From Pelosinus fermentans DSM 17108 (GTDB taxonomy: Bacteria; Bacillota; Negativicutes; DSM-13327): DNA of 64,000 bases. Shown here one piece after another: positions 17,689 to 62,589 of the stretch. The DNA lies in contig NZ_AKVN02000001.1 in NCBI RefSeq assembly GCF_000271485.2, positions 2,381,501 to 2,445,500 of the forward strand, read 5' to 3'. A program made the position numbers and the translations under genes. Under the pieces are notes generated by a model. The model was not told where the DNA came from, ran no database searches, and worked only from the letters and a program-made list of their open reading frames with translations. Positions within the stretch are counted from its first letter, which is position 1. Every line of letters starts with the position of its first letter.

Positions 17689-17805
17689 TCAGCAAGAGGA
17701 AAAATCATCAGATGAACAGCAGAAAAATAACAAAATGATGATGATGATAATAATAGACCAATTACCACCACGGCCGTTGCCATTACCTCCAAACCCGAAG
17801 CCCAT
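17689..17805 (-). CDS. 38-residue Gly-rich/poly-Ile peptide, YjcZ-like (copy 1)
   Basis: A tiny gene too short for ordinary ORF calling. The peptide begins MGFGFGGNGNGRGG, then has an uninterrupted run of seven isoleucines followed by LLFFCC and an acidic/serine tail ending in Cys. It thus has a glycine-rich head, a membrane-length hydrophobic core and cysteines. A perfect AAGGAGGAATAATT stands before the ATG. It is a clear paralogue of the peptide at 62415-62531 (same length, same layout). The pattern resembles YjcZ-type small sporulation peptides; the sigma-K-like promoter at 17848 agrees with that. Biochemical function is unknown. Confidence 0.82.
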   Translation of the reverse strand: MGFGFGGNGNGRGGNWSIIIIIIILLFFCCSSDDFSSC

Positions 17806-17847
17806 AATTATTCCTCCTTTTTTCATGCGTATTCTTGTGACTTACTA

Positions 17848-17876
17848 CATTGTATGCTTACTAGACAGAGTAGGTG
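17848..17876 (-). promoter_or_regulatory. Sigma-K-like promoter of the Gly/Ile peptide gene
   Basis: On the minus strand CACC (17876-17873), 16 bases, then CATACAATG (17856-17848). This matches the sigma-K consensus mACm-16/17-CATAnnnTA with one mismatch in the last base. The start codon is 43 bases downstream. Confidence 0.6.
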
Positions 17877-17992
17877 ATAATTGAACGAATAATCTTAGTT
17901 AAAGGAAAGCAACATTAGGTATACATATGCAGGAGTTTATAATTTCTCGACGAATCTTGTACATACAATTAGGAAGGAAGAGAGAGTTGCAG

Positions 17993-18301
17993 ATGATAGT
18001 TAAAAATGCTTTAGAACAGATTGAGGTCTTAGTACGTAATCTCAAAAAGGAAAATAATACGGAAAGGCTATTATGCTATTCTGCGGTTATTACCATACTT
18101 AATCGCATAGAAGATATTACAAAAGAAGAGAGGATACCCAATTACGTAATCTATAAAAAGGATTTATTGGAAAATTGCGAAAAAATTTGCGAATTAGAGG
18201 ACAACATTGGAGATGTTGGTCAACTTATTGGAAAGGCATTAGTAGCAATCCGTAATTTAAAGTCCTATCAATGTTTTAATGTGGATAATCATCATATTTA
18301 A
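17993..18301 (+). CDS. Hypothetical protein
   Basis: A 102-residue soluble, helix-rich, charged protein (MIVKNALEQIEVLVRNLKKE...) that I do not recognise. It has no signal peptide or membrane segment. AGGAAGGAAGAGAG lies before an in-frame ATG at 17993; a longer form from ATG 17927 would add a hydrophobic 22-residue extension but lacks a good RBS. It lies alone between the sporulation-type peptide gene and a terminator at 18337. No function is proposed. Confidence 0.6.
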   Translation: MIVKNALEQIEVLVRNLKKENNTERLLCYSAVITILNRIEDITKEERIPNYVIYKKDLLENCEKICELEDNIGDVGQLIGKALVAIRNLKSYQCFNVDNHHI

Positions 18302-18336
18302 TTGTTGAATCAATATAAGATTAAAAATTTTCATTG

Positions 18337-18366
18337 GGTTATCCTAGCGATGGGATAACCTTTTTA
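18337..18366 (+). terminator. Terminator after the 102-residue hypothetical gene
   Basis: GGTTATCC and GGATAACC form a perfect 8-bp stem with an 8-base loop, followed by five T. Confidence 0.85.
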
Positions 18367-18450
18367 CGATTTAGAATGGGTATGGTGGGATTAGTAAGTA
18401 CATTTATTAGCTCTTTTATGAATTAAAGTAGGCAAAAGAGGAATTTTATT

Positions 18451-18547
18451 ATGCGAAATAGAAAACAATACCAGGAGAAATCTGTTTTCTTTTTGGGGTG
18501 TATGTATTGCAATAGAAGATATTATAGATGGAATCATTGAAAAATAA
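18451..18547 (+). pseudogene. Tiny ORF apparently broken by a one-base insertion in CTTTTTGGGG
   Basis: ATG at 18451 has AGAGGA 8 bases upstream and opens MRNRKQYQEKSVFF, then ends as a 29-residue frame at 18540. Removing one T from the TTTTT run at about 18489-18494 would instead join this start to the neighbouring frame, giving FFWGVCIAIEDIIDGIIEK and a stop at 18547, a more protein-like 31-residue peptide. It could be a true pseudogene, a sequencing error in a homopolymer, or chance. Its function is unknown. Confidence 0.35.
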
Positions 18548-18657
18548 GAATAGCGATTAATCCGCCATTTCTAAACTATTTCACTATATGGGTTTATCAA
18601 TCGTGAATGTATAGTTGTTTTTTTGAAAGTACACTTATAGAAATAAAGGAGGATATT

Positions 18658-19731
18658 GTGGATAAGACATTAGTATGGTTAAAGAAAATATCGGAGGTTC
18701 CTGGAGTATCGGGATTTGAGCAACGTGTAAAGGATTTACTGTTAGAAAAAGTCAATAATCATGTAACGGTATCCTATGATAAGTTAGGCAGTATCATATT
18801 TGAAAAAGAAGGTCAACAACCTGGGCCTAAAATTATGCTAGCCAGTCATATGGATGAAATTGGATTTATGGTAAAAAATATTACCAAAGAAGGTTTTATT
18901 AAATTTGTCACTCTAGGCGGTTGGTGGGAACAAGTTATGCTAGGGCAAAAAGTTACATTATTATCTGCCAAAGGCGATATTCCAGGTGTTATTGGTAGTA
19001 AGCCGCCTCATGTTCTGACTCCTGAAGACCGCAAGAAGGTCGTACAAAAGCGTGAGATGTATATTGATGTTGGGGCTAGTAGTGAAGAAGAGGCTAAAGT
19101 TAAATTTGGAATTCGTCCTGGTGATGCGATTGTTCCATATAGCGAATTTACTGTTATGGCAAATGAAAAACTTTTAATGGCTAAAGCCTGGGACAATCGA
19201 ATTGGTTGTGCCATAATGGCGGAGGTTATGGAGCAACTTGCTTTAGAAAAACATTCAAATACTGTATATGGGGTAGGAACTGTCCAAGAAGAAGTTGGTT
19301 TACGGGGCGCAACAACTAGTGCAGGTGTTGTCAATCCAGATCTTTCATTTGCGATTGACACTTGTATTGCTGGGGATACACCAGGTATTTCTGAAGATCA
19401 GGCATCGAGTAAATTAGGTAAAGGTGTTGCGATTTGTATTTATGATGCTAGTATGATTCCACATACAAAATTGCGCGATTTGGTTATTGAAATTGCTAAT
19501 GAAAATCAAATTCCTTATCAACTGCAATTTACAGAAGGGGGTGGGACTGATGCTGGGCGTATTCATGTTCATGCGAAGGGAGTACCTAGCTTGGTATTAA
19601 GTATTCCTACACGTTACATACATAGTCATCACAGTATTATCCATCAGGATGATTATCAGTCTGCAATTAAGTTATTAATGGCAATCATAAAGAAGTTAGA
19701 TGCTACTATATATAATAAGTTGGTGAATTAA
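18658..19731 (+). CDS. M42 family metallo-aminopeptidase
   Basis: Cytoplasmic dinuclear-metal aminopeptidase (FrvX/YsdC/glutamyl aminopeptidase group), which in relatives forms tetrahedral dodecamers trimming peptides. The 357-residue protein shows the metal and catalytic residues in ASHMDEIGFMV, WDNRIGC, QEEVGLRGA, AIDTCIAGDTPG and YIHSHHSIIHQDDY. The start is GTG at 18658 with AAAGGAGG 5 bases upstream; an ATG at 18607 would add an unrelated N-terminal tail. It is followed 3 bases later by a left-handed beta-helix protein. Confidence 0.93.
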   Translation: MDKTLVWLKKISEVPGVSGFEQRVKDLLLEKVNNHVTVSYDKLGSIIFEKEGQQPGPKIMLASHMDEIGFMVKNITKEGFIKFVTLGGWWEQVMLGQKVTLLSAKGDIPGVIGSKPPHVLTPEDRKKVVQKREMYIDVGASSEEEAKVKFGIRPGDAIVPYSEFTVMANEKLLMAKAWDNRIGCAIMAEVMEQLALEKHSNTVYGVGTVQEEVGLRGATTSAGVVNPDLSFAIDTCIAGDTPGISEDQASSKLGKGVAICIYDASMIPHTKLRDLVIEIANENQIPYQLQFTEGGGTDAGRIHVHAKGVPSLVLSIPTRYIHSHHSIIHQDDYQSAIKLLMAIIKKLDATIYNKLVN

Positions 19732-19734
19732 AGG

Positions 19735-20244
19735 GTGAAAGATAATATAATACCTTATAAGGGAACCGTTCCTCAAATTAATGATAATGTATTTTTGGCT
19801 GGTGGCGCATATATTATAGGTGACGTTACAATTTCCTCCCATGCCAGTATCTGGTTTAATACTGTAATACGCGGTGATGTTCATCCTATCAGCATTGGCA
19901 GCTTTACGAACATACAGGATAATTCCACGATTCATGCAATGCATGACTATGAAACGATTATTGAGGATTATGTTACTGTTGGTCATGGAGTTATTTTACA
20001 TGCTTGTCATATAGGCAGTAATTGTCTTATAGGTATGGGATCTACGATATTAAGTTATGCAGAAATCGGAGAAAATTGTATTATCGGTGCAGGATGCCTC
20101 ATCACAGAGCATAAGAAAATTCCTCCTAATTCTTTGGTGATGGGAGCACCAGGAAAAGTGATCAGAACAGTAACCGAAAAGGAAATTGAAAACATTAGAC
20201 AATCTGCTCTTAATTATTATAACGAATCATTACACTATCGTTAA
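19735..20244 (+). CDS. Gamma-carbonic-anhydrase-like hexapeptide-repeat protein (YrdA/PaaY type)
   Basis: A 169-residue left-handed beta-helix protein with many isoleucine-patch hexapeptides and gamma-class metal ligands (NSTIHAMHDY, VTVGHGVILHACHIG). The family includes gamma carbonic anhydrases and PaaY thioesterases; which activity applies here is unclear. Start GTG at 19735 lies 3 bases after the M42 gene, with GGTGA about 8 bases upstream inside that gene, implying coupling. Confidence 0.87.
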   Translation: MKDNIIPYKGTVPQINDNVFLAGGAYIIGDVTISSHASIWFNTVIRGDVHPISIGSFTNIQDNSTIHAMHDYETIIEDYVTVGHGVILHACHIGSNCLIGMGSTILSYAEIGENCIIGAGCLITEHKKIPPNSLVMGAPGKVIRTVTEKEIENIRQSALNYYNESLHYR

Positions 20245-20265
20245 GAAATTGAAGAGGTGATATTT

Positions 20266-20682
20266 ATGGAAAAAACCTTACTTCTATTAAAACCTGATGC
20301 TGTTGTTAAAGGTGTATGTGGGCAAATTATTGATCGCTTTGAAAAACGTGGTTTTGAAATTGCTGCAATAAAGATGGTGCAATTAACCAGGAAGCAAGCT
20401 GAAATTCATTATTATGAACACACTGATAAACCATTTTTTCAAGAATTAGTCGATTTTATTACCTCTAGTCCTCTTATTGCTATGGTAATAGCAGGAGAAA
20501 ATGCGATTAAAGTTTCAAGAATTATGATGGGGTCGACTAATCCTATTGATGCAGCAGCAGGTACGATTCGTGGAGATTTCGCGTTAAATATTAGAAAAAA
20601 TATCATTCATGGCTCTGATAGTTTGATAAGTGCAGAAAGAGAAATTAAGAATTTTTTCACTGAGAAAGAACTTTATTTATAA
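20266..20682 (+). CDS. ndk: Nucleoside diphosphate kinase
   Basis: Transfers the gamma phosphate of ATP to nucleoside diphosphates through a phosphohistidine. The 138-residue protein shows KPDAVVKG, the nucleotide-site sequence GSTNP and the active histidine in NIIHGSDS. I place the start at ATG 20266 because GAGGTGATATTT sits just before it; the frame opens slightly earlier. It follows the beta-helix gene by 21 bases. Confidence 0.96.
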   Translation: MEKTLLLLKPDAVVKGVCGQIIDRFEKRGFEIAAIKMVQLTRKQAEIHYYEHTDKPFFQELVDFITSSPLIAMVIAGENAIKVSRIMMGSTNPIDAAAGTIRGDFALNIRKNIIHGSDSLISAEREIKNFFTEKELYL

Positions 20683-20709
20683 GGTTTCTCTCGGATAAGC
20701 AATCATTCG

Positions 20710-20740
20710 TTGACGTCTAAATGAAACGTTAGACTATTAT
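20710..20740 (+). promoter_or_regulatory. Possible promoter with dyad in a 19-base spacer
   Basis: TTGACG at 20710 and TATTAT at 20735 are 19 bases apart; the spacer carries GTCTAA-8 nt-TTAGAC. A long spacer with an internal dyad is the layout of MerR-regulated promoters. The -10 is only about 8 bases from the SD of the adenosyltransferase gene, so it may instead be just a hairpin after ndk. Confidence 0.3.
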
Positions 20741-20763
20741 AAGATTTAAGGAGGAATTTTTCC

Positions 20764-21270
20764 ATGAAAGTATATACAAAAACTGGCGATAAAGGAACTA
20801 CAGGTTTATTGACGGGGGAGCGCATTGACAAAGATAGTTTGAGAGTAGAAGCTTATGGTATAGTTGATGAAATTAACTCTGCTTTAGGATTAGCAAGGGT
20901 GTGGTGCTGTAAAAATGATAATAAAGAAGTTATTTATAGCGTACAGAAAATGCTAATGATGGTCATGGCAGATCTTGCTAGTGTTAATAAGGAATCATAT
21001 TATATTACGGAAGCTCATGTAAAACAATTGGAGCAATATATTGATGCAATTGATGCTAAGCTGCCCCCATTAAAAGAATTTATTATTCCTGGTGGAAGTG
21101 CCGGGGCTGCTGCTTTGGATTTAGCTCGTACTACTGCTAGAAGAGGAGAACGGCAAGCTATTAAATTGTCAAAGCAAGAAGATGTAAACGAACAAGTATT
21201 AATTGCTTTAAATCGGTTATCTGATCTATGCTTTATGTTATCTCGAGCAGAACTTGCGCAAAATCAATAA
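20764..21270 (+). CDS. PduO-type cob(I)alamin adenosyltransferase
   Basis: Transfers the adenosyl group of ATP to cob(I)alamin to make coenzyme B12. The 168-residue helical protein has TKTGDKGTTGLLTG, RVEAYGIVDEINSALG and ARTTARRGER, the ATP-binding and trimer-interface motifs of the PduO/MMAB family. TTTAAGGAGGAAT precedes the ATG. No other B12 gene is adjacent. Confidence 0.93.
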   Translation: MKVYTKTGDKGTTGLLTGERIDKDSLRVEAYGIVDEINSALGLARVWCCKNDNKEVIYSVQKMLMMVMADLASVNKESYYITEAHVKQLEQYIDAIDAKLPPLKEFIIPGGSAGAAALDLARTTARRGERQAIKLSKQEDVNEQVLIALNRLSDLCFMLSRAELAQNQ

Positions 21271-21283
21271 TAAATATCAGATA

Positions 21284-21312
21284 CACCAATGCCTCCATCG
21301 CAGCATACAATA
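21284..21312 (+). promoter_or_regulatory. Sigma-K-like promoter of the 26-residue peptide
   Basis: CACC at 21284-21287, a 16-base spacer, then CATACAATA at 21304-21312, a perfect fit to the sigma-K -10 CATAnnnTA. CATACAAT also fits the sigma-E -10, but no sigma-E -35 is evident. The start codon is 50 bases downstream. Confidence 0.62.
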
Positions 21313-21361
21313 TAAGTATATAATGTGTGTATCATGTTAAGTAATGAGGGAGGCGAACGCG

Positions 21362-21442
21362 GTGAAACCTTTAAAAATCTATGTTATGTCAGTACCTAAG
21401 CCACTGCGTAAAATTATGCAGCTGTTTTGTAAAAGTTCGTAA
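21362..21442 (+). CDS. 26-residue SpoVM-like peptide
   Basis: A tiny gene with its own promoter (21284), a good RBS (GGGAGG, 8 bases before GTG at 21362) and a terminator 12 bases after the stop. The peptide starts MKPLKIYVMSVPKPL and continues as a short basic/hydrophobic helix (RKIMQLFCK). It has exactly the length of Bacillus SpoVM, and the SVPKPLRKIM stretch can be aligned to the LPKFLGGIV stretch of SpoVM. SpoVM anchors the spore coat on the forespore membrane. Similarity over so few residues is weak evidence; late-sporulation expression is better supported than identity. Confidence 0.55.
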   Translation: MKPLKIYVMSVPKPLRKIMQLFCKSS

Positions 21443-21453
21443 GCTGATTAAAG

Positions 21454-21487
21454 AATAACCGCCTATAATAGGCGGTTATTAATTTTT
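21454..21487 (+). terminator. Terminator after the 26-residue peptide gene
   Basis: AATAACCGCC and GGCGGTTATT form a perfect 10-bp stem with a 7-base loop, followed by AATTTTT. Confidence 0.88.
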
Positions 21488-21546
21488 ATAATGAATAAAC
21501 TGAAAAGAAGGAATGTTCAGTATTCGCGGAGAAGTGTAAAAAAAGT

Positions 21547-21584
21547 TATATTAATTAGTATGGGTAGAAGGCTAAATTAATATA
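21547..21584 (+). promoter_or_regulatory. Hairpin immediately upstream of the EF-G-like SD
   Basis: TATATTAATTAG and CTAAATTAATATA form a 12-bp A/T-rich stem with one bulge; the SD (GGGGGA) begins at the very next base. This could modulate ribosome access to the EF-G paralogue. It is weak and purely structural evidence. Confidence 0.35.
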
Positions 21585-21596
21585 GGGGGAATTAAT

Positions 21597-23672
21597 TTGA
21601 AAGAGTACAGAAGTGATAAGCTTAGAAGCGTGGGGATTGTGGCTCATGGTGGGGCAGGGAAAACAAGTGTTGCTGAAGCTTTATTATTTAATACAGGAGC
21701 TATAACTCGCATCGGACGTGTGGATGACGGGACAACGACCACAGATTTCGAACCAGAAGAAATTAAACGAAAAGTAACGATTAGTGCGGCGTTAGCGCCG
21801 TGTGAATGGCGTGATCATAAAATTAATTTTATTGATACTCCTGGATATGCTGACTTTGTTGGAGAAGTAAAAAGTACATTAAGGGCTGTAGACAGTGCTT
21901 TAGTTGTAGTATGCGCTGCATCAGGAGTTGAAGTAGAAACCGAAAAAGCGTGGCAATATATTAGTGAACTAAACTTACCTCGTATTGTTTTTATTAACAA
22001 AATGGATCGTGAAAATGCGGATTTTCATAATGTAATTCAGGAGATGAAAGATAAATTTGGTTCCACTATTCTGCCAATTCAACTACCTATTGGCGCAGAA
22101 GAAAACTTTAAGGGCATTATCGATTTAGTAAAAATGAAAGCAATTTTATCTTCTCCTAATCAACGTTCCCAGGGAGCAGAGGCAGATATTCCAGAAAATT
22201 TAAGAGAAACGGCTTTGGAACTTCGTCAGAAATTGATTGAAGTTGTCGCTGAGTCAGATGATGATCTTTTAGCTAAATACCTGGATGGAGAAGAATTATC
22301 GGATGAAGAAATAAAAATAGGGATATTAAAAGGTGCCTTTCAAGGAAATATAATTCCCGTTATGTGCGGTGCAGCCTATAAAAATATCGGAATACAACAA
22401 ATTATGAATGCAGTATTGGATTATACTCCATCTTCTGAAGCTAGTCGTTTCTTAGGGACTCATCCTGTGTCAAAGGAAATTGTGGAGAGAAAAGCTTCGG
22501 ATGGTTTTTCAGCATTAGTATTTAAAACAACTGCCGATCCTTTCGTTGGGCGTCTTAGTTATATACGCATATTTTCAGGATCTATGAAACCTGACAGTAT
22601 GATATATAATGCATCTAAGGAAAAAATAGAGAGGTTTGGAAATCTTTTTACATTGCGTGGCAAACATCAAGAACCTTTAAATGCTATATATGCTGGTGAT
22701 ATTGCTGTTGTGGCAAAACTGCAGGAGACAGGAACAGGTGATACACTATGTGAGAAAGATAAGCCTATAATTTTTGAACCGATAACGTATCCTAAACCGA
22801 TGTTTACGATGAGCATTGAAGCGAAGAATAAAGGCGATGAAGACAAAATTGGAAATGCTTTAAATCGTCTTATGGATGAAGATAGAACATTTAAAGTTGT
22901 AAAAAATGTGGAAACGAAACAATTATTGGTTAGTGGCATCGGGGAATTACATACGGACATTATGGCAGAACGTATGAAACGTAAATTTGGTGTAGATGTA
23001 ATATTATCGGATCCTAAGGTTCCTTATAGGGAAACCATTCGTGGTTCTGTCAAAGTAGAAGGAAAGCATAAAAAGCAAAGTGGTGGTCATGGGCAATACG
23101 GGCATGTATGGTTACAATTAGATCCATTACCAATGGGGACTAATTTCGAATTTGTTGATTCCATTTTTGGTGGAGCTGTACCGCGTCAATATATTCCTGC
23201 TGTTGAAAAAGGAGTGCGTGAAGCACTCGTAGGTGGTATTTTAGGTGGCTATCCAATGGTAGATGTTAAAGTAACTCTATATGATGGTTCGTATCATAAT
23301 GTTGATTCTTCAGAAATGGCATTTAAAATTGCCAGTACAATGGCTTTACGTAAAGGCGCTTTACAGGCAAAGCCGGCATTATTAGAGCCAATTTGCAATG
23401 TTAATATAAATGTACCAGATTCTTTTATGGGAGATGTAATTGCTGATTTAAATGGTAAACGTGGACGAATTCAAGGAATGGAACCTATTACTCAAGGAGC
23501 TGGGGTTATTAAAGCACAAGTTCCCATGTCCGAAATGTTTCGTTACGCAATTGATTTACGTTCTATTACCCAAGGACGCGGCTATTTTGATTTAAACTTT
23601 TCTCACTACGAAGAAGTGCCTCAACGCATAGCAGAAATGATAATCGCTACTAGCAAAAATGAAGAACATTAA
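21597..23672 (+). CDS. Elongation factor G-like GTPase (FusA2 type)
   Basis: A 691-residue translational GTPase with all five EF-G domains. G motifs are AHGGAGKTS (residues about 16-24), DTPGYADF and NKMD; canonical EF-G has AHIDAGKTT, so this is the EF-G-like paralogue group rather than the main fusA next to rpsL/rpsG. The role of this group is not settled; ribosome rescue, recycling or fusidic-acid-independent functions have been discussed. Start TTG at 21597 follows AGGGGGAATTAA. It stands alone between two terminators. Confidence 0.9.
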   Translation: MKEYRSDKLRSVGIVAHGGAGKTSVAEALLFNTGAITRIGRVDDGTTTTDFEPEEIKRKVTISAALAPCEWRDHKINFIDTPGYADFVGEVKSTLRAVDSALVVVCAASGVEVETEKAWQYISELNLPRIVFINKMDRENADFHNVIQEMKDKFGSTILPIQLPIGAEENFKGIIDLVKMKAILSSPNQRSQGAEADIPENLRETALELRQKLIEVVAESDDDLLAKYLDGEELSDEEIKIGILKGAFQGNIIPVMCGAAYKNIGIQQIMNAVLDYTPSSEASRFLGTHPVSKEIVERKASDGFSALVFKTTADPFVGRLSYIRIFSGSMKPDSMIYNASKEKIERFGNLFTLRGKHQEPLNAIYAGDIAVVAKLQETGTGDTLCEKDKPIIFEPITYPKPMFTMSIEAKNKGDEDKIGNALNRLMDEDRTFKVVKNVETKQLLVSGIGELHTDIMAERMKRKFGVDVILSDPKVPYRETIRGSVKVEGKHKKQSGGHGQYGHVWLQLDPLPMGTNFEFVDSIFGGAVPRQYIPAVEKGVREALVGGILGGYPMVDVKVTLYDGSYHNVDSSEMAFKIASTMALRKGALQAKPALLEPICNVNINVPDSFMGDVIADLNGKRGRIQGMEPITQGAGVIKAQVPMSEMFRYAIDLRSITQGRGYFDLNFSHYEEVPQRIAEMIIATSKNEEH

Positions 23673-23682
23673 TTACATTTAG

Positions 23683-23712
23683 AAAAGCAGGCTAAAGGTC
23701 TGCTTTTTATTT
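23683..23712 (+). terminator. Terminator after the EF-G-like gene
   Basis: AAAAGCAG and CTGCTTTT form an 8-bp stem with a 9-base loop, followed by TATTTTAT. Confidence 0.7.
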
Positions 23713-23885
23713 TATGTCAGATCATGGTTAAAAATAAAATTTTATAAATTGAAGGAATTTTTAGATTATTTAACTAATATTATATATGGAAATAAATATG
23801 CAAAGGAGTACTTGTCTTTTGTTCGAAATTAGAATAAGCTATAAGTATGTGATAATTGGGATAAATATGTAAAAAAGTTAGTAAA

Positions 23886-23914
23886 ATAGCATCCAGTAAA
23901 ATACTGAATGCTAT
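23886..23914 (-). terminator. Hairpin downstream of tRNA-Gln (minus strand)
   Basis: ATAGCATCCAGTA and TACTGAATGCTAT form a 13-bp stem with one G.U pair. Read on the minus strand it lies 24 bases after the tRNA 3' end and a T6 run follows within about 10 bases. Confidence 0.6.
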
Positions 23915-23938
23915 TGGAGTTATATTTTAAGTTATAAA

Positions 23939-24014
23939 TGGCAGGGGCAGCTGGACTCGAACCAACGGATGCGGGAGTCAAAGTCCCGTGCCTTACCAAC
24001 TTGGCTATGCCCCT
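23939..24014 (-). tRNA. tRNA-Gln (anticodon TTG)
   Basis: On the minus strand the acceptor AGGGGCA pairs with TGCCCCT and CCA is encoded. The anticodon stem CGGGA/TCCCG encloses CTTTGAC, giving anticodon TTG (Gln, CAA codons). The D arm (AGCCAAGTTGGTAAGGC) and T arm (GTTGG-TTCGAGT-CCAGC) are complete. It is a solitary tRNA gene between two plus-strand protein genes. Confidence 0.96.
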
Positions 24015-24117
24015 GTAAATGGATACCTTAAGAAATATATAATATTATATTCTTTACCCACGAATATTAATTATACGTATCTAATATAGATATGTCAATA
24101 AAATTTAAGGAGAATCT

Positions 24118-24813
24118 ATGATAAAAATATCGAAAAATATAATACGTTTAGTTGTATGCTGCGTAATGTTTTTTATCATATATGGCTCTGCTGAAGCACA
24201 GAGTTTAAAATTGCAACTAGGTATGTCTGGGGAAGCTGTGTATTTATTACAAAGTAAGCTGCAGGAACTTGGGTTTTACTCGGGAGAACTTGATGAAAAA
24301 TTTGGTTCTGGTACATTAAATGCTGTTATCCGGTTCCAAGAAGCCTGCGACCTTGAGGCTGATGGTATTGTAGGCACTCAAACACTTGTTGCGCTGCATC
24401 AGTATAAAACAAGCAGCATAAGCAGTCGAGGCCAGATGACAAGAAGACCAGAAAAAAACATTGGTTCTTTTGCACAAAAGTTTATTAATATTCCTTATCA
24501 ATGGGGTGGTTCTTCTCCGAGTGGATTTGATTGTTCGGGATTTATATACTATATTTATAACCAATATGGTATCTTTATGCCTCGTATGGCTGATGAACAA
24601 TTTAAAGTTGGACTGGTAATCCATGTATCTGAGCTACAAGCTGGAGATTTAGTTTTTTTTAGCACTTATGAGCCAGGTCCATCCCACGTGGGAATATATA
24701 TTGGTAATGATCAGTTTATTCATGCCAGCTCTGCTGCAGAAAGAGTAACAATAACAGCTTTATCAAAGCCTTATTATCAAGCAAGATACCTTGGTGCGCG
24801 AAGAATACTATAA
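24118..24813 (+). CDS. Secreted NlpC/P60 peptidoglycan endopeptidase with PG-binding domain
   Basis: A 231-residue cell-wall hydrolase. Residues 1-28 form a signal peptide (basic start, hydrophobic core, cleavage likely after AEA). Residues about 32-95 form a peptidoglycan-binding type 1 domain (MSGEAVYLLQSKLQELGFY, FGSGTLNAVIRFQ). Residues about 115-231 are NlpC/P60 with catalytic Cys in FDCSGF, His in SHVGIYIG and a third polar residue in FIHASS. Domain order resembles spore cortex or cell-separation hydrolases. AAGGAGAATCT precedes the ATG and a terminator follows at 24837. Confidence 0.93.
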   Translation: MIKISKNIIRLVVCCVMFFIIYGSAEAQSLKLQLGMSGEAVYLLQSKLQELGFYSGELDEKFGSGTLNAVIRFQEACDLEADGIVGTQTLVALHQYKTSSISSRGQMTRRPEKNIGSFAQKFINIPYQWGGSSPSGFDCSGFIYYIYNQYGIFMPRMADEQFKVGLVIHVSELQAGDLVFFSTYEPGPSHVGIYIGNDQFIHASSAAERVTITALSKPYYQARYLGARRIL

Positions 24814-24836
24814 TGATGAACGAAATCCAAACGAAG

Positions 24837-24868
24837 AAAGCAACCATTAGCCTGGTTGCTTTTTTATT
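24837..24868 (+). terminator. Terminator after the NlpC/P60 gene
   Basis: AAGCAACC and GGTTGCTT form a perfect 8-bp stem with an 8-base loop, then TTTTTATT. Confidence 0.88.
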
Positions 24869-24888
24869 ATATCGATCGCTGGCTAAAG

Positions 24889-24935: not shown

Positions 24936-24981
24936 AATATAGTGTAATTAGATCAGTCAGAAAGTTAAAAGTCTATCGCCA

Positions 24982-54598: not shown

Positions 54599-54621
54599 TC
54601 ATTTGCGAAGGAGGATTAATC

Positions 54622-55149: not shown

Positions 55150-55207
55150 CTGCATAATGGTTTTACACAAGTGAAGAAGAAAAATAGCGTTATAGAGAGT
55201 GATAATA

Positions 55208-56068: not shown

Positions 56069-56077
56069 AAAGAATAT

Positions 56078-56126
56078 AAGGAAGAGACTATCTCAAAATT
56101 ATCGAGATAGTCTCTTCCTTATATAA
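56078..56126. terminator. Strong terminator after rbgA
   Basis: AAGGAAGAGACTATCTC and GAGATAGTCTCTTCCTT form a perfect 17-bp stem with a 9-base loop. It marks the end of the conserved block; a second hairpin (ATACAAGAT...ATCTTGTAT) follows at about 56125-56165. Confidence 0.85.
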
Positions 56127-56220
56127 TACAAGATATGATTTCTTAGGAACCCACATCTTGTATTGTATAAAGAATTTCCAGTTCAAGAATTGCTCAAAAA
56201 GTAGGCAGTGCAGTTGAGAA

Positions 56221-56478
56221 TTAAAAGATCATTTTATAGACGGCCCAATTTTTTTTATTCATATAAGAAAAAACTACATTTTGGATCAAATTTTCATCAA
56301 CTTTTTGTTTGAATAATTTTCCAAGTTTCAATCGTGAAGAATTAGGTACTTCAAACCATTCCTCTTCTGAAAAGAGATCAGGTAGTGAAAATTCAGAAGT
56401 ATCTTCATTGCTACGCCTTTGTCGCATTTCCGATAGGATTTTGATATATAAAATATGTTCATCTTCTTGGAGAGTCAT
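56221..56478 (-). CDS. Small DUF1413-like protein
   Basis: An 85-residue soluble protein. FSLPDLFSEEEWFEVPNSSR followed by LGKLFKQKV fits the DUF1413 pattern (Leu-Phe-x-x-x-x-Trp, Arg-Leu-x-x-Gly-x-x-Phe), a small domain of unknown function common near mobile or regulatory genes. AAGGATGATATTCTT precedes the ATG at 56478; the ATG at 56490 lies within that SD. Nothing nearby hints at its role. Confidence 0.6.
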   Translation of the reverse strand: MTLQEDEHILYIKILSEMRQRRSNEDTSEFSLPDLFSEEEWFEVPNSSRLKLGKLFKQKVDENLIQNVVFSYMNKKNWAVYKMIF

Positions 56479-56810
56479 TAAGAATATCATCCTTTCATTA
56501 CTGTATATTCTATTTTAATTCTTTACCATATAGCAATAATCCTTTGTTTACATAAGAAAATATTAAAACAATAGTATTGTAGCTTGATAAAAGTGCCTAT
56601 TATCGTAACTATTTGTGAAAGGTACGGAAAGTATAAGAGATTTAATGTTCAGCATTGGCAGAATGTCAGAAACATGGTAGGTATACTTTTGTCGTAACAA
56701 TATAATAGTGGAAGAATATTGAGCTGCTTAAAAGTAAGTGATTTATTACGTTGCAGGAATTTAGGCTCCCTTGACGAACTATGTATTAAAATGGCAAAGG
56801 AGGGATATAT
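56479..56810. other. Intergenic region without recognisable gene
   Basis: A/T-rich spacer between two divergent small genes. Candidate -10 boxes occur (TATAAT at about 56701), but none has a matching -35 at the right distance. No stable hairpin or repeat is evident. Confidence 0.4.
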
Positions 56811-57254
56811 GTGCATGTTAATAACCAAATAATTGATATCAACTCAGAAGAACATTTCTTTGCAATCATTAAAAACAGCTTTATAAAATATAAAAATGAA
56901 AAAAACAAAAGTGTCGAACTATTACTATTTATTATTATGGGGTTAAATCATTTAAATGAATGGATAACACCAGGCTATGCTCCCTTTACAAAGAGTGGAA
57001 ATATAAACGTCCCTAAAACGAAGTATGAGCAATTCTCAAATGATGTCTATCTTACAAATGAACATAGAATAATAAGAGAAATATGCAGTAAATCAAAGCA
57101 AATGGAGCCTAGCCTTAATACATCAACCAGTCATACAATGTCATTTGATGATGTAGATAACGGACCAGTTACTTGTTATACGGTAGATGGGATGGATATT
57201 GAAGAAATTATAGAAAAGTTAATCTTGTTTTATCAAACAAGATGGTTTAATTAA
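56811..57254 (+). CDS. Hypothetical protein
   Basis: A 147-residue protein that I do not recognise. It starts with GTG at 56811 behind an excellent AAGGAGGG. It has no signal peptide; a moderately hydrophobic stretch (VELLLFIIMGLNHLNEWITPG, about 38-58) lies in the first third, and the C-terminal part (MDIEEIIEKLILFYQTRWF) looks helical. Base composition is A/T-richer than the housekeeping genes to the left. It could be a remnant of a mobile element or an orphan gene. Confidence 0.6.
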   Translation: MHVNNQIIDINSEEHFFAIIKNSFIKYKNEKNKSVELLLFIIMGLNHLNEWITPGYAPFTKSGNINVPKTKYEQFSNDVYLTNEHRIIREICSKSKQMEPSLNTSTSHTMSFDDVDNGPVTCYTVDGMDIEEIIEKLILFYQTRWFN

Positions 57255-57362
57255 TTACTGGCTATATGCTAAGCGATAATATTCAATGGGAAAGTGCCGT
57301 CTAATAGGGTCTCACTTATAGAGTGAGTGCTACTAAAGGAAAATATCTTATTTCATTCATAG

Positions 57363-57390
57363 ATACGTCCTACGGGGCGTTTTTCTTATG
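57363..57390 (+). terminator. Hairpin with T-run between small orphan genes
   Basis: ACGTCC and GGGCGT pair around TACG, followed by TTTTTCTT; an overlapping hairpin (GCGTTTTTCTTAT facing ATAAGAAGAAAAACGC) can serve the minus-strand gene that ends at 57428. Confidence 0.5.
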
Positions 57391-57427
57391 TTCAATAAGA
57401 AGAAAAACGCTGCTGCTAAGCACCCTT

Positions 57428-57676
57428 TCACGAATTTCTGCTAATTATTTTCCGTATTACTTCCGTTACCCGCATATAATCATCATTTCCAACGGGATAG
57501 GATGGAGGTCTACGATCAGCTATTTTCCCATCATAAACCATCTGGACTTTTACTACTCTATGATTTTCTCCACCCCAAGTTTCAAGTCCTACTGAAACTC
57601 GATATTGAGTATTAGGAGGATGGGGTGAACTTGCTGGTACCATAGCCGCTGCTTCGGGGTAATATACTTTTGCCAT
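57428..57676 (-). CDS. Hypothetical protein
   Basis: An 82-residue protein from MAKVYYPEAAAMVPASS; it has a proline-rich segment (PASSPHPPNTQ), a middle VSVGLETWGGENHRVVKVQM and a basic C-terminus. I do not recognise a family. The frame extends upstream to an ATG at 57751 (107 residues), but the extension is basic and has no clear SD; GAGTGTGAGC lies before 57676. Context is orphan. Confidence 0.5.
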   Translation of the reverse strand: MAKVYYPEAAAMVPASSPHPPNTQYRVSVGLETWGGENHRVVKVQMVYDGKIADRRPPSYPVGNDDYMRVTEVIRKIISRNS

Positions 57677-57751
57677 ATGCTCACACTCATTTCTAAATTT
57701 AAAATACCTTTGGATTACCTTTAGTATACCTTTAGAAACTGTATTTTTCAA

Positions 57752-58159
57752 GCTAAAAAATACAGTTGAGTAAGTGCTAGACGTTTTGTAAACGTATAGC
57801 TTCTAATTGATTATCGTTTAGTACTAATTGTACATATTCCCAAACATCTTAAATGACAATAATATAATTGGATTTACTTAAAGTATGAGCATTGTTTTAC
57901 ATTTCAGGAAAATTGTAAAACTTTAGTAGGAATTAGCGACCTAGAAAGAGAATTAACTGTAATTAATAACTATATTTTTATCCTGTTAGATGCTGGATAT
58001 GCCAACTTAGTCGTTTCAGAGAATGTTTAACCTATTCAAACTGTTATGACCATACCTTTTGGCGCATGGCAGTACGTACATAAAGAGGTTATAGGACCGT
58101 TTCTTTCATAATATAGCATAGTTGCTTTCCAAATATAAAAAAATAGGAGTGTGTTAATT
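57752..58159. other. Gene-free stretch with a possible gene remnant
   Basis: About 400 bases. A start-less reading frame from 57863 to 58030 encodes a plausible helical fragment (SDLERELTVINNYIFILLDA near its end) but has no ATG, GTG or TTG, so it may be a decayed gene. AGGAGTGTG at 58144 is the RBS of the dehydrogenase that follows. Confidence 0.35.
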
Positions 58160-59338
58160 ATGAAAAATTTCGAATATTATGCCCCTACTAAAGTGATTTT
58201 TGGTAAGGATGCACAAATGCAGACGGGAAGCCTTATTCAAGCCCTGAATTGTAAAAAAGTGTTGGTTCACTTTGGAGGCGGCAGTGCTAAAAAATCTGGT
58301 TTACTGGATAACGTTTTTGCTTCCCTCACAGCAGCAGGGATTGATTATGTAACTTTGGGTGGAGTTGTACCCAATCCCAGGCTTTCTAAAGTGTACGAAG
58401 GCATTGAACTGTGCAAAAAAGAGAAGGTTGACTTTATTTTAGCTGTGGGCGGTGGCAGCGTTATTGATTCAGCCAAAGCCATCGGTTACGGCATAACAAA
58501 TGACTGTGACGTGTGGGATTTATATGATGGCAAGGCACAGGCGACTGGCTGCCTGCCAATCGGCGTCATTTTGACTATTTCGGCTGCAGGTAGTGAAATG
58601 AGCAATTCCTCTGTAATAACCAAGGAAGAAGGGGGGCTAAAAAGAGGCTGTAATACTGACTATGCACGATGTAAATTTGCTATTATGAATCCGGAGTTAA
58701 CCTATACGTTACCTCAGTATCAGACGGAAAGTGGTTGTACCGATATCTTGATGCATACCATGGAGCGTTACTTCACTATGGAAAGAAGTATGGAAGTAAC
58801 AGATAGTATCAGCGAAGGCTTAATGAGGACCGTGATACGAAATGCAAAGATACTAATGAAGGAACCCCAAAATTATGATGCACGAGCAGAAATCATGTGG
58901 GCTGGAAGTCTTTCTCATAACGGTTTGACAGGGTGCGGTTCTGTTGGTGACTGGGCGTGTCATCAATTAGAGCATGAGTTAGGCGGCATGTTTGATGTAG
59001 CGCATGGCGCAGGCCTGTCAGCAGTGTGGGGAAGTTGGGCGCGTTATGTATACAAGACAAATGCAATGCGTTTTGCACAGTTTGCGGTGAATGTACTAGG
59101 CATGCTCAATGATTTCAGTAATCCCGAAAAGACCGCTTTAGAAGGTATCAATGCTATGGAGGATTTTTATCGATTTATCGGTATGCCTACCTCTATCCGG
59201 GAAATGGGTGTTGAGCTAACAGACGAGCAGATTCATGAATTGGCTTATAAGTGCAGCTTTAAAAATACCAGAACCATCGGCAATTTCCAGATTCTCAATA
59301 TGGAGGATATCGGCAAAATTTATTCCATGGCTCGATAA
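58160..59338 (+). CDS. Iron-containing alcohol dehydrogenase (BdhA/YugJ-like)
   Basis: A 392-residue group III NAD(P)H-dependent dehydrogenase, probably reducing aldehydes such as butanal. It has FEYYAPTKVIFGKD, the dinucleotide loop AVGGGSVIDSAKAIGYG and the metal ligands in ESGCTDILMHTMERY, CHQLEHELGG and DVAHGAGLSAVWGSW. AGGAG lies 11 bases before ATG 58160; GTG 58151 is too close to it. It is monocistronic, ended by the hairpin at 59354. Exact substrate not deducible. Confidence 0.92.
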   Translation: MKNFEYYAPTKVIFGKDAQMQTGSLIQALNCKKVLVHFGGGSAKKSGLLDNVFASLTAAGIDYVTLGGVVPNPRLSKVYEGIELCKKEKVDFILAVGGGSVIDSAKAIGYGITNDCDVWDLYDGKAQATGCLPIGVILTISAAGSEMSNSSVITKEEGGLKRGCNTDYARCKFAIMNPELTYTLPQYQTESGCTDILMHTMERYFTMERSMEVTDSISEGLMRTVIRNAKILMKEPQNYDARAEIMWAGSLSHNGLTGCGSVGDWACHQLEHELGGMFDVAHGAGLSAVWGSWARYVYKTNAMRFAQFAVNVLGMLNDFSNPEKTALEGINAMEDFYRFIGMPTSIREMGVELTDEQIHELAYKCSFKNTRTIGNFQILNMEDIGKIYSMAR

Positions 59339-59353
59339 ATTACAAACAAAAAT

Positions 59354-59392
59354 GAGCAGAAGGCTAATCAATGAATGATTAGCCTTCTGCTC
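59354..59392. terminator. Hairpin between convergent adh and ykvI-like genes
   Basis: GAGCAGAAGGCTAATCA and TGATTAGCCTTCTGCTC form a perfect 17-bp stem with a 5-base loop. No T-run follows, but stem strength and position suggest termination. Confidence 0.7.
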
Positions 59393-59525
59393 TGGCATGC
59401 CTGGTTGGGTAATTAAACAGTACAAGTTTCGTAGTAGTACGAGAATCGATAGTATGCTCCGTCTGGTCTGTAATACCCAGTTTCAGGACAGTCGCTTTTG
59501 CGGTTACATGGGATGAACGCTTATT

Positions 59526-60677
59526 TTAAACTGCTCTATCCAGCTTCTGTTCTATTCGCAACTTAGCATTTCTTTTTATTTTTATAGTGCCGACAATAAT
59601 CTCGGGAAGTAAGACAAAGAATAGGCCGATATAACCAACAGAACCATATCCTTTGACAACGATATTCGTTAAACCAAATACAGAGATACCTGTGCATAGA
59701 GCAATGGTAACAAGAGAAATGAAAATCCTACGAGTGCTCAAGCTTTTAAAAATATTTCTTTTAATCAATACAGGCTCAAAACGAGCAACTGTAGAAAATA
59801 TCAAAGATATTGCGGTACCTAACAATGCCACAAACAAAATGACACTGTATAAGATTTTTAGCCAAGGCAAATCAAGTTTTGTAGTCACAAAATATACCGG
59901 CAGAGTCTGGTTGAGAACTTCTGGGGAGAAACCTAATAGCATGATACAAATAATTGCCAGAAAAGCGCCATTTAAAAGGGTGCCAAATAGCATAAATCTA
60001 TTGCAGTCTTTAGTAGTTTTAATATTATGAGAGACAGAGATTATAGGCAGTACTGTAAAGGCTTGAAAGCCAATATAGATTAGCATATACCAAACTGCGT
60101 CCCCAAAACTAGTGCCAAATGTTTCATGATTAGCCAAAACGTGTTGGAAATTAAATGCCCCCATTTGAATACCTAATACGCAGAGAATAAGAAGGGTAAC
60201 GATTATGAAATAAGTCTTGAGATTTAAGACTTTCACAATTAGTTCGCTACCAAATATAGTTAGTAACAGTAAAATAGTTCCTACAGTTACTATGCCTACT
60301 CCATAAGGAATTGCCAAGGAACTCATTAATAGGGCACCTGAACCTGCAATTGAAGTACTTACGCCACAAATAATCAACATGATAAATCCCAACTCAAAGA
60401 CGATAGAAAAATATTTTTCATAAGGATGAAAAAGGGCATCACAGAAGCTTTTATAATCATAAGTCTTATAGTCTTTAGCTAAGACAAGTGCATTCCGATG
60501 ACCCCAGCCTAAAAGCAGCATGGCAATTAATGGGAGAAAAACTGAGTACCAACCATATTTTACAAAATAGTTAACTTCTTGGTTGCCGGTGGCAAAGCCT
60601 CCACCGCTATGCGTTGCAAACCACACGGCTGCCATCGCAAATGATGTTCCAATTGAACTGGATTTCTGATTTTCCAT
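59526..60677 (-). CDS. YkvI-family membrane transporter, T-box controlled
   Basis: A 383-residue protein with about ten transmembrane helices, related to YkvI (COG3949) of the APC-like transporter superfamily: SFAMAAVWFATHSGGGFATG at the N-terminus resembles the first broken helix of sodium-coupled amino acid carriers. Its mRNA leader is a T-box whose specifier appears to be ATT (Ile), so isoleucine or branched-chain amino acid transport is a reasonable inference. GGAAGGAACAATAATT precedes the ATG. Direction of transport is unknown. Confidence 0.85.
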   Translation of the reverse strand: MENQKSSSIGTSFAMAAVWFATHSGGGFATGNQEVNYFVKYGWYSVFLPLIAMLLLGWGHRNALVLAKDYKTYDYKSFCDALFHPYEKYFSIVFELGFIMLIICGVSTSIAGSGALLMSSLAIPYGVGIVTVGTILLLLTIFGSELIVKVLNLKTYFIIVTLLILCVLGIQMGAFNFQHVLANHETFGTSFGDAVWYMLIYIGFQAFTVLPIISVSHNIKTTKDCNRFMLFGTLLNGAFLAIICIMLLGFSPEVLNQTLPVYFVTTKLDLPWLKILYSVILFVALLGTAISLIFSTVARFEPVLIKRNIFKSLSTRRIFISLVTIALCTGISVFGLTNIVVKGYGSVGYIGLFFVLLPEIIVGTIKIKRNAKLRIEQKLDRAV

Positions 60678-60781
60678 AATTATTGTTCCTTCCTTTATTA
60701 TTTTCAGTACTTAAGATTTCATGCCAGAGATAAGCCTAGGATTTATCAAGTGGTACTAATCAAAGAATTTTAGGACACAGA

Positions 60782-61090
60782 AAAGCCCCTATTGACATAC
60801 ACGTCAATAGGGGCGACAATATCGCGGTACCACCCTACATTAGGCTCATAATTCAGCCAAATTAAGTACAACGGCTGATATCCTATAACGCGGATGCACG
60901 CTTTTACCTAAATAAGTTCAATTCTTACATTCAGCAAAAGAATTCATGGGTGAGTTTCGCAATAAATATCTGTACCGGTTTTCACCAGCCACCGGATCTC
61001 TGAAACAGAATACGAATTGCTTTTTCCCAATCATTATTTTTATCAATTTAAATTTTAGTAAGCATTACACGCCTGCAGGACGAAGTGATT
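60782..61090 (-). promoter_or_regulatory. T-box riboswitch (probable Ile specifier)
   Basis: On the minus strand the hallmark AGGGTGGTACCGCG occurs at 60838-60824. It is followed by a 13-14-bp terminator stem, GCCCCTATTGACG facing GTCAATAGGGGC (60815-60786), and a T-run. Stem I lies upstream with AGAGATCCGGTGGCTGGTG and the specifier region TATTTATTGCGAAAC; ATT at 60963-60961 sits where the codon is expected before GCGAA. The variable T-box base is T, which pairs with discriminator A, as in tRNA-Ile. Uncharged tRNA would antiterminate the YkvI-family gene. Confidence 0.9.
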
Positions 61091-61093
61091 ATT

Positions 61094-61123
61094 ATAATAT
61101 TACACTTATTGCCCTTTTGTCAA
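61094..61123 (-). promoter_or_regulatory. Promoter of the T-box transcript
   Basis: On the minus strand TTGACA (61123-61118), 18 bases, TATTAT (61099-61094), directly upstream of T-box stem I. Confidence 0.65.
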
Positions 61124-61175
61124 TGTAATAATAAAGATTTGTAACTTTTAATTAGTGGTTTTAATATACTACATT

Positions 61176-62138
61176 TTAGAAGGGAAAGATAATTCTAGCT
61201 AGGTAAATAGCTAATGTCAGTGTCACAGCACTAAAAATAGTTGACACCATGACAGCTTGAGAGGCAAAATCCTGACAGCTCTCGCATTCGACAGCGATTA
61301 ACGCTGTGTTGACAGCCGTTGGAACGGAATATGCAATAAATATGGTTTGCGCTACAACGCCATGGAAACCCATAATGTATATAAAGAATCCTGCTAATAT
61401 CGGACCAATGATAAGCCGTGTAAATACAGATAAATGAACATCGACACTTTTGAAATCAAACGTAGTTTTAGCAAGTTGTGCTCCTAGTGTTAGTAATGAG
61501 ATTGGAACGAGCCCGTTCTTAAGATATACGAGGGCAGGCCAGAGAGCAGTTTGGATCATATCGAATTCAAAATGTTTCAATATGAATACAATGGGTATTG
61601 CATAAATGGATGGCATTGCAAAAACTCTCAAAAGAGAATCCTTAACAGTCATTGTAGCTCGTCCTGCATTGAAAAATCCGATAGTATTACTTGAGATGTT
61701 TTGTAGTACTAGTATCATGAGCTGTGCAGTAATAGCCTCATCAAGATAAGGAGTTTTTCCTTCAACAACAAAAGGAGCACTTGAAAAAATGAGTATGATT
61801 AAAGATAATCCGATATTCCCTGAATTGTTAAACATTATTGAATTTTTAAAGGCATTTTTCATACCTACATCGTAGTTGCGAATTTGTGAAACGATTCGTC
61901 CTAGAATATCATTGGCAATCAACAATAATACTCCGCAAAAGAAGATTTTAAGCATTTCTATTTTAAGAATTGCTTCGTAAAGATTAACAAATATAAAAGA
62001 CGGTACTAATAAATAAAATAGCAATTTACTAAGACTTGGGATATCTAAAGTGAATTTTTTACTTAAAATAAAACCTAAGGTAATTAATATAAATATCGGT
62101 GTAATATTGTGATTCAGTATATGAAAAAAAATAGGCAT
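61176..62138 (-). CDS. AEC family transporter (auxin efflux carrier-like permease)
   Basis: A 320-residue membrane protein with about ten transmembrane helices and the AEC (PF03547) pattern: ITPIFILITLGFILSKKF at the N-terminus, NSGNIGLSLIILIFSS in the middle and VPTAVNTALIAVE near the end. Bacterial members export or import organic acids such as malate or lactate; substrate here is unknown. AAAGGA lies about 8 bases before ATG 62138; an earlier in-frame ATG at 62156 lies ahead of that SD. It stands alone. Confidence 0.9.
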   Translation of the reverse strand: MPIFFHILNHNITPIFILITLGFILSKKFTLDIPSLSKLLFYLLVPSFIFVNLYEAILKIEMLKIFFCGVLLLIANDILGRIVSQIRNYDVGMKNAFKNSIMFNNSGNIGLSLIILIFSSAPFVVEGKTPYLDEAITAQLMILVLQNISSNTIGFFNAGRATMTVKDSLLRVFAMPSIYAIPIVFILKHFEFDMIQTALWPALVYLKNGLVPISLLTLGAQLAKTTFDFKSVDVHLSVFTRLIIGPILAGFFIYIMGFHGVVAQTIFIAYSVPTAVNTALIAVECESCQDFASQAVMVSTIFSAVTLTLAIYLARIIFPF

Positions 62139-62238
62139 ATAAAATCCTTTCTGCATATGAATAATTACTATATCTATGTATTTTGTCAGTATTTACCTCG
62201 GAAGTCAAACTTTATTTTGTTAGATATACTTTTTGCTA

Positions 62239-62278
62239 ATGGAATGAAATTCTAGTAAAAATAACACAATCATTCCAT
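62239..62278. repeat. Inverted repeat upstream of the AEC transporter gene
   Basis: ATGGAATGA (62239-62247) and TCATTCCAT (62270-62278) are perfect inverted arms with a 22-base loop, about 100 bases upstream of the AEC start. It could be an operator or a leader hairpin. Confidence 0.4.
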
Positions 62279-62343
62279 AGTTTTATATTTAATTAGGTCA
62301 GCAAATGCATGTCTAGACGACATTAACTGTAATTTTAATAAGG

Positions 62344-62378
62344 CAAAAAAATAAACCACGTCTTGGTGGAACGTGGTT
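62344..62378 (-). terminator. Terminator of the second Gly/Ile peptide gene
   Basis: On the minus strand AACCACG and CGTGGTT form a 7-bp stem with an 11-base loop, followed by TATTTTTTTG. Confidence 0.8.
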
Positions 62379-62414
62379 GCAAGAGAAACGGTTTGGTGGA
62401 TTAGTTCAAAGAAA

Positions 62415-62531
62415 TTAACAACTAGAAGAACACTCGTCATTGCAGCAGAAAAATAATAAGAGGATAATTATGATAATAATACAGCCGGAACCACCGAAGC
62501 CATTGCGGCCGCCTCCGAAACCTAGGCCCAT
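62415..62531 (-). CDS. 38-residue Gly-rich/poly-Ile peptide, YjcZ-like (copy 2)
   Basis: Begins MGLGFGGGRNGFGG, then Ser-Gly-Cys, six isoleucines, LLLFFCC and an acidic, cysteine-rich tail (NDECSSSC). It has the same length and layout as the peptide at 17689-17805, 45 kb away. AAAGGAGGGATACAT precedes the ATG at 62531; the frame continues upstream to 62642, but that part is the promoter and leader. A sigma-K-like promoter (62561) and a terminator (62344) frame it, so it is a complete monocistronic gene. Probably a late-sporulation peptide; function unknown. Confidence 0.82.
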   Translation of the reverse strand: MGLGFGGGRNGFGGSGCIIIIIILLLFFCCNDECSSSC

Positions 62532-62560
62532 ATGTATCCCTCCTTTGTCGTCGATTAATT

Positions 62561-62589
62561 TATTATATGATAGATAATTAGAAGAGGTG
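62561..62589 (-). promoter_or_regulatory. Sigma-K-like promoter of the second Gly/Ile peptide gene
   Basis: On the minus strand CACC (62589-62586), 16 bases, CATATAATA (62569-62561), a perfect CATAnnnTA -10. The start codon is 30 bases downstream. Confidence 0.65.

Follow-up and report, generated by a model that had tools for sequence, protein, structure and literature searches.

We analyzed a window of 64,000 nucleotides from Pelosinus fermentans DSM 17108 (class Negativicutes; RefSeq assembly GCF_000271485.2, contig NZ_AKVN02000001.1, positions 2,381,501 to 2,445,500 of the forward strand). It contains three very short genes, two for Gly/Ile/Cys-rich peptides and one for a SpoVM homologue, all preceded by the same promoter-like string (Table 1). 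An earlier note on this DNA had described the string as CACC, exactly 16 bases and CATANNNTR, and had read the three genes as a regulon of tiny late-sporulation peptides made in the mother cell under sigma-K. The string can be read letter for letter before all three genes; in element 1 the last base of the -10 box is G, not A. The strong Shine-Dalgarno (SD) sequences that had been described are also present, as AAGGAGG- or AGGGAGG-like stretches before each start, and the elements stand 42, 49 and 29 nucleotides from the start codons ATG (17805), GTG (21362) and ATG (62531), respectively.

Table 1. Features of the three short genes (positions are those of the window).
Feature	Position	Strand	Basis
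Promoter-like element 1, CACC-N16-CATACAATG	17848-17876	-	AC-type -35, CATANNNTR-type -10
Shine-Dalgarno AAGGAGG, peptide gene 1	17813-17819	-	
Peptide gene 1, 38 aa: Gly-rich N-terminus, Ile7 core, Cys/acidic tail	17689-17805	-	ORF, profile family
Promoter-like element 2, CACC-N16-CATACAATA, 5' of spoVM	21284-21312	+	pattern match
Shine-Dalgarno AGGGAGG, spoVM	21347-21353	+	
spoVM homologue, 26 aa, GTG start	21362-21442	+	homology
Intrinsic-terminator-like hairpin 3' of spoVM	21454-21480	+	
Promoter-like element 3, CACC-N16-CATATAATA	62561-62589	-	pattern match
Shine-Dalgarno AAGGAGG, peptide gene 3	62539-62545	-	
Peptide gene 3, 38 aa, Ile6 core, paralogue of gene 1	62415-62531	-	ORF, profile family
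Intrinsic-terminator-like hairpin 3' of peptide gene 3	62354-62378	-	

In the whole window, CACC-N16-CATANNNTR matches three times, each time at one of these genes (100 dinucleotide shuffles gave a mean of 0.29 matches, and one of them reached 3). The genome-wide scan that the earlier note had proposed gave 29 exact matches in the 5.03-Mb genome versus 11 for the reversed-pattern control; pooled over spacings 12-20 the numbers were 185 versus 122, with about 19.5 matches per spacing other than 16. A match was scored as preceding a gene when an open reading frame (ORF) of at least 20 amino acids with an SD (SD-ORF) started 20-110 nucleotides downstream of it. Such SD-ORFs follow 17 of the 29 matches at spacing 16 and 3 of 80 at other spacings (L355, L361 and L372; Fisher's exact test, p = 1.2e-9), and when paralogues are collapsed to one, the comparison is 11/23 versus 3/80 (p = 1.7e-6). 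These controls are the first 80 of about 156 matches; the first 40, from the first 1.5 Mb, gave 0/40, and the contrast remains strong after the enlargement to 80. One spacing-15 match beyond the 80 controls precedes a gene of the peptide family (copy at C1:2471194). A relaxed pattern, ACC-N16-CATANNATR, shows no raw enrichment genome-wide (33 matches versus 35 in the control), and 18 of its 30 matches examined out of the 33 are followed by an SD-ORF. The motif signal resides more in placement than in raw count.

We consider it very improbable that the shared string arose by chance, or that an ordinary vegetative promoter drives the genes. The even count of the relaxed pattern would be expected under such a reading, as would the few control matches that precede an SD-ORF, and the three genes represent only two families. 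On the other hand, the SD-ORF enrichment is specific to spacing 16, the promoter is conserved in 30 genomes (see below), and no simple consensus match to a sigma-70-like promoter lies between element and start at genes 1 and 2. A single 9-of-12 sigma-70-like match lies just 5' of element 3, in a region with 4 matches versus a shuffle mean of 2.4 (standard deviation 1.3).

The 17 SD-ORF targets represent 11 gene families, namely the Gly/Ile/Cys peptides (five), CWPR-repeat proteins (three), spoVM, a 42-aa peptide and seven singletons, three of which have no family match. Of the targets, 11/17 are below 100 aa, but the set is not limited to tiny genes, with 6/17 of 154-410 aa. The larger ones include a peptidoglycan-binding YkuD L,D-transpeptidase (L005), an Amidase_2 protein, a radical-SAM/SPASM protein and a spore_YtaF-like protein whose score of 145.6 bits lies just below the cut-off of 149.6. 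Both ykuD and yjcZ are listed in the sigma-K regulon of B. subtilis in the part of PMC517825 available to us; the motif-bearing YkuD-domain protein recalls the former and was counted in favor of a sigma-K reading. The radical-SAM/SPASM protein (L009:236-1468, minus strand) resembles peptide maturases, and since it shares the promoter motif, some small spore peptide may undergo post-translational modification. The three CWPR-repeat short-protein genes (L229; G000 contig 1, starts 2454366, 2469688 and 2470975, minus strand) have an identical CACCTTTATTTACCATAGATCATATTATG promoter. A peptide-family copy (2471194-2471310) adjoins the last two of them, and this group of genes is possibly a coat-gene island.

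Peptide genes 1 and 3 are paralogues with 66% identity, so the three genes of the window are not three independent cases; genes 1 and 3 belong to one family, which has 12 copies in the source genome (fifteen-row profile). A five-row profile gave 189 matches in 39 of 250 Negativicutes genomes. The family is present in 36 of 51 SpoIVA-positive genomes versus 3 of 199 SpoIVA-negative ones (p = 6e-28, phylogeny not corrected for). The three SpoIVA-negative carriers are G004, a Pelosinus assembly that is 83% complete, G037 and G043; the latter two carry a SpoVM match and spoIIIAA, so both probably form spores, SpoIVA having been missed in their assemblies. Outside the class, the family was found in 0 of 397 genomes of a phylum sample, searched with a stricter cut-off and not picked for spore formers. 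As sampled, the peptide family is confined to Negativicutes and occurs nearly always together with SpoIVA.

Searches of Pfam and NCBIfam with peptide genes 1 and 3 gave no credible family; the weak matches below cut-off, to models of a viral fusion protein, ATG27 and TatA, were judged spurious. Over pairs of six close copies, 126 of 190 differences are synonymous, with 23% expected at random. For spoVM the share is 173 of 409 in nine Pelosinus-family sequences (21% expected). Because of this synonymous excess and because homologues stay in frame across many genomes, we regard both the peptide and the spoVM ORFs as real. No description of the peptide family was found in the titles and abstract openings searched.

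We next turn to the promoters of the family, for which we collected 52 upstream rows from the 189 matches, corresponding to 51 distinct genes (L086 and L156 are the same gene) in 30 genomes. A -10 box CATANNNT[AG] lies 37-59 nucleotides before the start in 52/52 rows. The -35 letters are AC in 31 rows, AC or GC in 50 and ATA in none; the profile has T at -21 (0.79), A or G at -19, C at -18 (0.83) and C or A at -17, and is A-rich after that. Inspection by eye of the 12 copies in the source genome gave five with CACC-N16, two with TACC-N16, and one each with AACC-N16, with CACC-N15 and with AC in register, the remaining two having none. CACC, which had been taken as the signature, is indeed the commonest form in Pelosinus, where CACC or TACC mostly occurs, but elsewhere in the class AACC, AGCA, CGCA or CACA takes its place.

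As local sigma-E references we used spoIVA and spoIIIAA, from which three and four of 30 loci, respectively, were left out because the anchor string was not present. Upstream of spoIVA the letters are mostly GTAATA or GTCATA followed by CATATATTT, with ATA in 27/27 loci; upstream of spoIIIAA they are mostly [GT]CATAA...CATATCTATGTAAAG, with ATA in 22/26 and AC in 2/26. Two -35 matrices were built, one trained on the peptide family and one on the two sigma-E references, and reached leave-one-out accuracies of 47/52 and 51/53. The ATA-type -35 expected of a sigma-E promoter occurs in 0/52 peptide-family and 0/49 spoVM promoters. The sites in the window and the peptide family carry instead the features expected of sigma-K-type promoters, namely an AC-type -35, a CATANNNTA-type -10 and a spacing of about 14-16. 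A -35 of the AC or GC type in 50/52 rows and never ATA, set against ATA in all spoIVA loci, fits sigma-K. By their sequence these promoters form a genuine, conserved sigma-K-type set, which goes with a new class-specific micro-protein family and with the SpoVM of Negativicutes. The dipicolinate gene dpaA could not be used as an independent sigma-K reference, with DpaA_N (PF16924) in 0/30 sporulating class genomes at E 1e-10; a DpaA-type dipicolinate synthase is apparently lacking in them. Many spoIVA upstream regions (L041-L069) also have a long leader with a AAGGGAGGGATG-like stretch far 5' of the gene's own SD.

The C-termini of the sigma factors themselves differ: GISRSYVSR is found in 6/6 sigma-K and GISQSYISR in 13/13 sigma-E sequences, and the place of the Arg and Gln residues agrees with the Arg/Gln difference discussed in the available part of a published paper. 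The sigK gene of P. fermentans lies in two parts on one strand, about 7.9 kb apart (L226:855-1310 for the N part and L226:9232-9516 for the C part; G000 contig 1, about 2222354-2231015). A serine recombinase gene (L226:1344-2897, minus strand) adjoins the N part and the 10-bp repeat AAGGAAATGA stands at both junctions; the DNA that splits sigK is a putative skin-like element. Among 14 sporulating genomes, sigK is full-length in five, represented by the N part only in eight (in G046 it ends earlier) and missing in one. Nearby we observed a peptide-family copy directly 3' of the C part (L226:10121-10234, minus strand) and a second, partial copy of the sigK C-terminus (L226:10614-10700). Transposases of the DDE_Tnp_1_6 family are encoded inside the sigK element (L226:6226-7239, plus strand) and next to peptide gene 3 (window positions 62799-63908, minus strand).

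The middle gene of the window has a cobalamin adenosyltransferase gene (20764-21270) on one side and an EF-G-like gene (21597-23672) on the other; the product of the middle gene is, as far as homology can tell, a member of the SpoVM family. A profile of 23 homologues matched B. subtilis SpoVM with E 3.4e-4 and a probability of 37.6 over 19 columns; an unrelated profile (A3) gave no match to it. A profile that includes B. subtilis SpoVM retrieves MKFYTIKLPKFLGGIVRAML-type genes from other parts of the phylum. A search against solved structures returned five weak matches to SMT3, none of them credible. Among the 250 class genomes, 55 gave SpoVM matches, of which three are weak and were taken as spurious; by SpoIVA status this makes 50 of 51 SpoIVA-positive versus 5 of 199 SpoIVA-negative genomes (the three weak ones being among these five; p = 1e-45, phylogeny not corrected for). 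The proline equivalent to Pro9, the single fully conserved proline of SpoVM according to a figure legend of PMC5607322, is kept in 49/49 rows (42 distinct peptides). That genes this short may be under-annotated, as had been suggested, is supported by the survey of Galperin et al. (PMC3533761), whose available text calls SpoVM rarely annotated and notes that no complete genome of a spore-forming Negativicute existed at that time; PMC3738446 does not mention spoVM.

The promoter of spoVM was examined in 49 upstream regions from the 52 credible genomes (G009, though read, was not counted, and G028 and G090 were left out). In five of these 49 rows there were two -10 candidates and the one with an upstream AC was preferred, which biases the count slightly toward AC. 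The -35 letters are AC in 44/49 and AC or GC in 49/49, and the peptide-family matrix outscores the sigma-E matrix in 46/49. Within the Pelosinus family, CAC[CT]-N16-CATACANTA stands 5' of spoVM in the nine matching of ten genomes searched (by eye). The AC-type -35 suggests late expression of spoVM, or its reading by sigma-E as well as sigma-K. No account of the Negativicutes spoVM promoter was found in the titles and abstract openings searched.

A different explanation is that spoVM is read by sigma-E alone or together with SpoIIID, the CAC-type -35 being a tolerated variant, and that only the Gly/Ile/Cys peptides are sigma-K genes. We regard this as a serious possibility, if somewhat short of an even chance. 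The sigma-E -10 is CATACAMT, and the spoVM -10 resembles it in having A at the sixth position in 45/49 regions. SpoIIID binds a WWRRACARNY-type consensus, which occurs in 1/49 spoVM upstream regions; a SpoIIID site was accordingly rejected as the cause of the spoVM -35. Outside the class, AC-type elements with [CA]ATANNAT boxes were seen by eye 5' of spoVM in 6 of 28 loci from four families (L315, L316, L326, L327, L331 and L332; 29 loci other than our own, less L334, which is not SpoVM-like). The AC form is therefore not peculiar to Negativicutes, which supports the sigma-E explanation and weakens the idea of a switch of spoVM in this class only. In the other 22/28 loci, Bacillus-like ones among them, the scan showed neither type of element clearly. 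Since the scan finds no ATA at the Bacillus-like spoVM genes either, its absence neither excludes sigma-E nor proves sigma-K. What counts against reading by sigma-E is the -35 itself, never ATA in 49 regions and nearly always scored higher by the peptide-family matrix. In favor of the sigma-E explanation, spoVM is under sigma-E in both B. subtilis and C. difficile according to the available parts of PMC517825 and PMC5607322; in the latter, sigma-E control was measured in C. difficile and SpoIIID dependence is stated for B. subtilis.

Taken together, we favor, with a probability of roughly two in three, the reading of the string as a sigma-K-type late mother-cell promoter, with the peptide family as micro-proteins of the spore envelope and spoVM expressed late or under dual control. 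The late mother-cell assignment of the earlier note would thus stand for the two peptides, by their link to sporulation through SpoIVA co-occurrence and a sigma-K-type promoter kept in 30 genomes. It does so less for the middle gene, which is SpoVM, a sigma-E gene in the model organisms, and for which the AC-type -35 makes sigma-K or dual control plausible. From the promoters and the company the genes keep, we infer the use of sigma-K, the cell compartment, the timing and the membrane or coat location of the products. RNA polymerase with sigma-K would read [C/A/T]ACC-N16-CATANNNTR before short transcription units, so that the Gly/Ile/Cys micro-proteins would be made in the mother cell after engulfment. 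Their Ile-rich stretch may insert into the outer forespore membrane or pack in the inner coat, and the Cys-rich tails could cross-link and fix them in place. As in Bacillus, the curved outer forespore membrane would be the binding site of SpoVM, the amphipathic anchor of the coat.

Several observations weigh against this reading. Besides the relaxed pattern, which is no more frequent than its control, 12 of the 29 exact matches have no SD-ORF. Two of the 12 copies in the source genome, a tandem pair near C1:2745800-2746200, have no clear element, and 5/52 family promoters score higher with the sigma-E matrix. In addition, at the threshold used the family is missing from 15 of the 51 SpoIVA-positive genomes. 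For spoVM, its sigma-E control in B. subtilis and C. difficile has to be added, together with its -10, where the conserved A stands at the sixth position and not, as in 42/52 peptide-family promoters, at the seventh, and with the missing ATA-type -35 at five Bacillus-like spoVM genes (L309-L313).

Rather than being envelope parts, the peptides might have a different function, such as that of small hydrophobic toxins or of signals that aid lysis of the mother cell, and be late for that reason, which we consider unlikely. They are short, very hydrophobic and multicopy, a likeness to type I toxins, and diderm spore formers must also shed the outer membrane at spore release, as stated in the available part of PMC7985256. 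Yet no antitoxin-RNA family matched in the window at the gathering threshold, and in our opinion a structural role is suggested by the conserved Cys/acidic tail and the Gly-rich start. At that same threshold three RNA families were found in the window, none adjoining the three genes: a T-box leader (60806-61043, minus strand), a flavin mononucleotide riboswitch (12418-12549, plus strand) and a tRNA (23942-24014, minus strand).

Spore formers that possess an outer membrane hold a central place in the debate on the evolution of the outer membrane and of sporulation; as of 2021 they were still described as lacking genetic tractability (PMC7985256, in its available part). Through a conserved promoter and a peptide family that spans the class, the late regulon of diderm spore formers becomes accessible by sequence, and both suggest that a set of spore-envelope micro-proteins has been overlooked. 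The presence of SpoVM in 50/51 SpoIVA-positive genomes extends the survey of PMC3533761, as far as its available text goes. If spoVM is indeed late, the accepted order of coat assembly, in which SpoVM anchors SpoIVA, fails in Negativicutes. More tentatively, and we would put it as rather doubtful, SpoIVA could be made early in this class from an ATA-type sigma-E promoter and SpoVM late from a sigma-K-type one, with up to a dozen Gly/Ile/Cys micro-proteins forming an otherwise unknown late envelope layer and many genera awaiting excision of the element that splits sigK.

Finally, the Pelosinus system can be compared with known ones. YjcZ of B. subtilis is Gly-rich and hydrophobic. The peptide family is like it at most in how it may work, being very short, Gly-rich and hydrophobic and, on our reading, under late mother-cell control; it differs from YjcZ in its Ile core and its Cys/acidic tail. 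No YjcZ-family match was obtained for P0001, P0003 or a 34-aa copy in NCBIfam and Pfam at E up to 10, the presence of the model in these libraries being unconfirmed. YjcZ itself belongs to the sigma-K regulon according to the available part of PMC517825. The SpoVM homologue is like that of B. subtilis and C. difficile in its length of about 26 aa, its basic character, the Pro9 equivalent and the tie to SpoIVA. It differs from them in that the gene is not beside rpmB in the source genome and has an AC-type -35, in the position of the Negativicutes proline (among 42 distinct peptides it is 11 or 12 with a single exception) and in the replacement of Ile6 by Met, Val, Leu and others. In B. subtilis and C. 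difficile, sigma-K promoters have an AC-type -35, a CATA-type -10 and a spacing of about 14-16 (PMC517825 and PMC3789822, in the parts available). The Pelosinus set is like them in all three features, whereas across the Negativicutes the letters of the -35 vary by genus.

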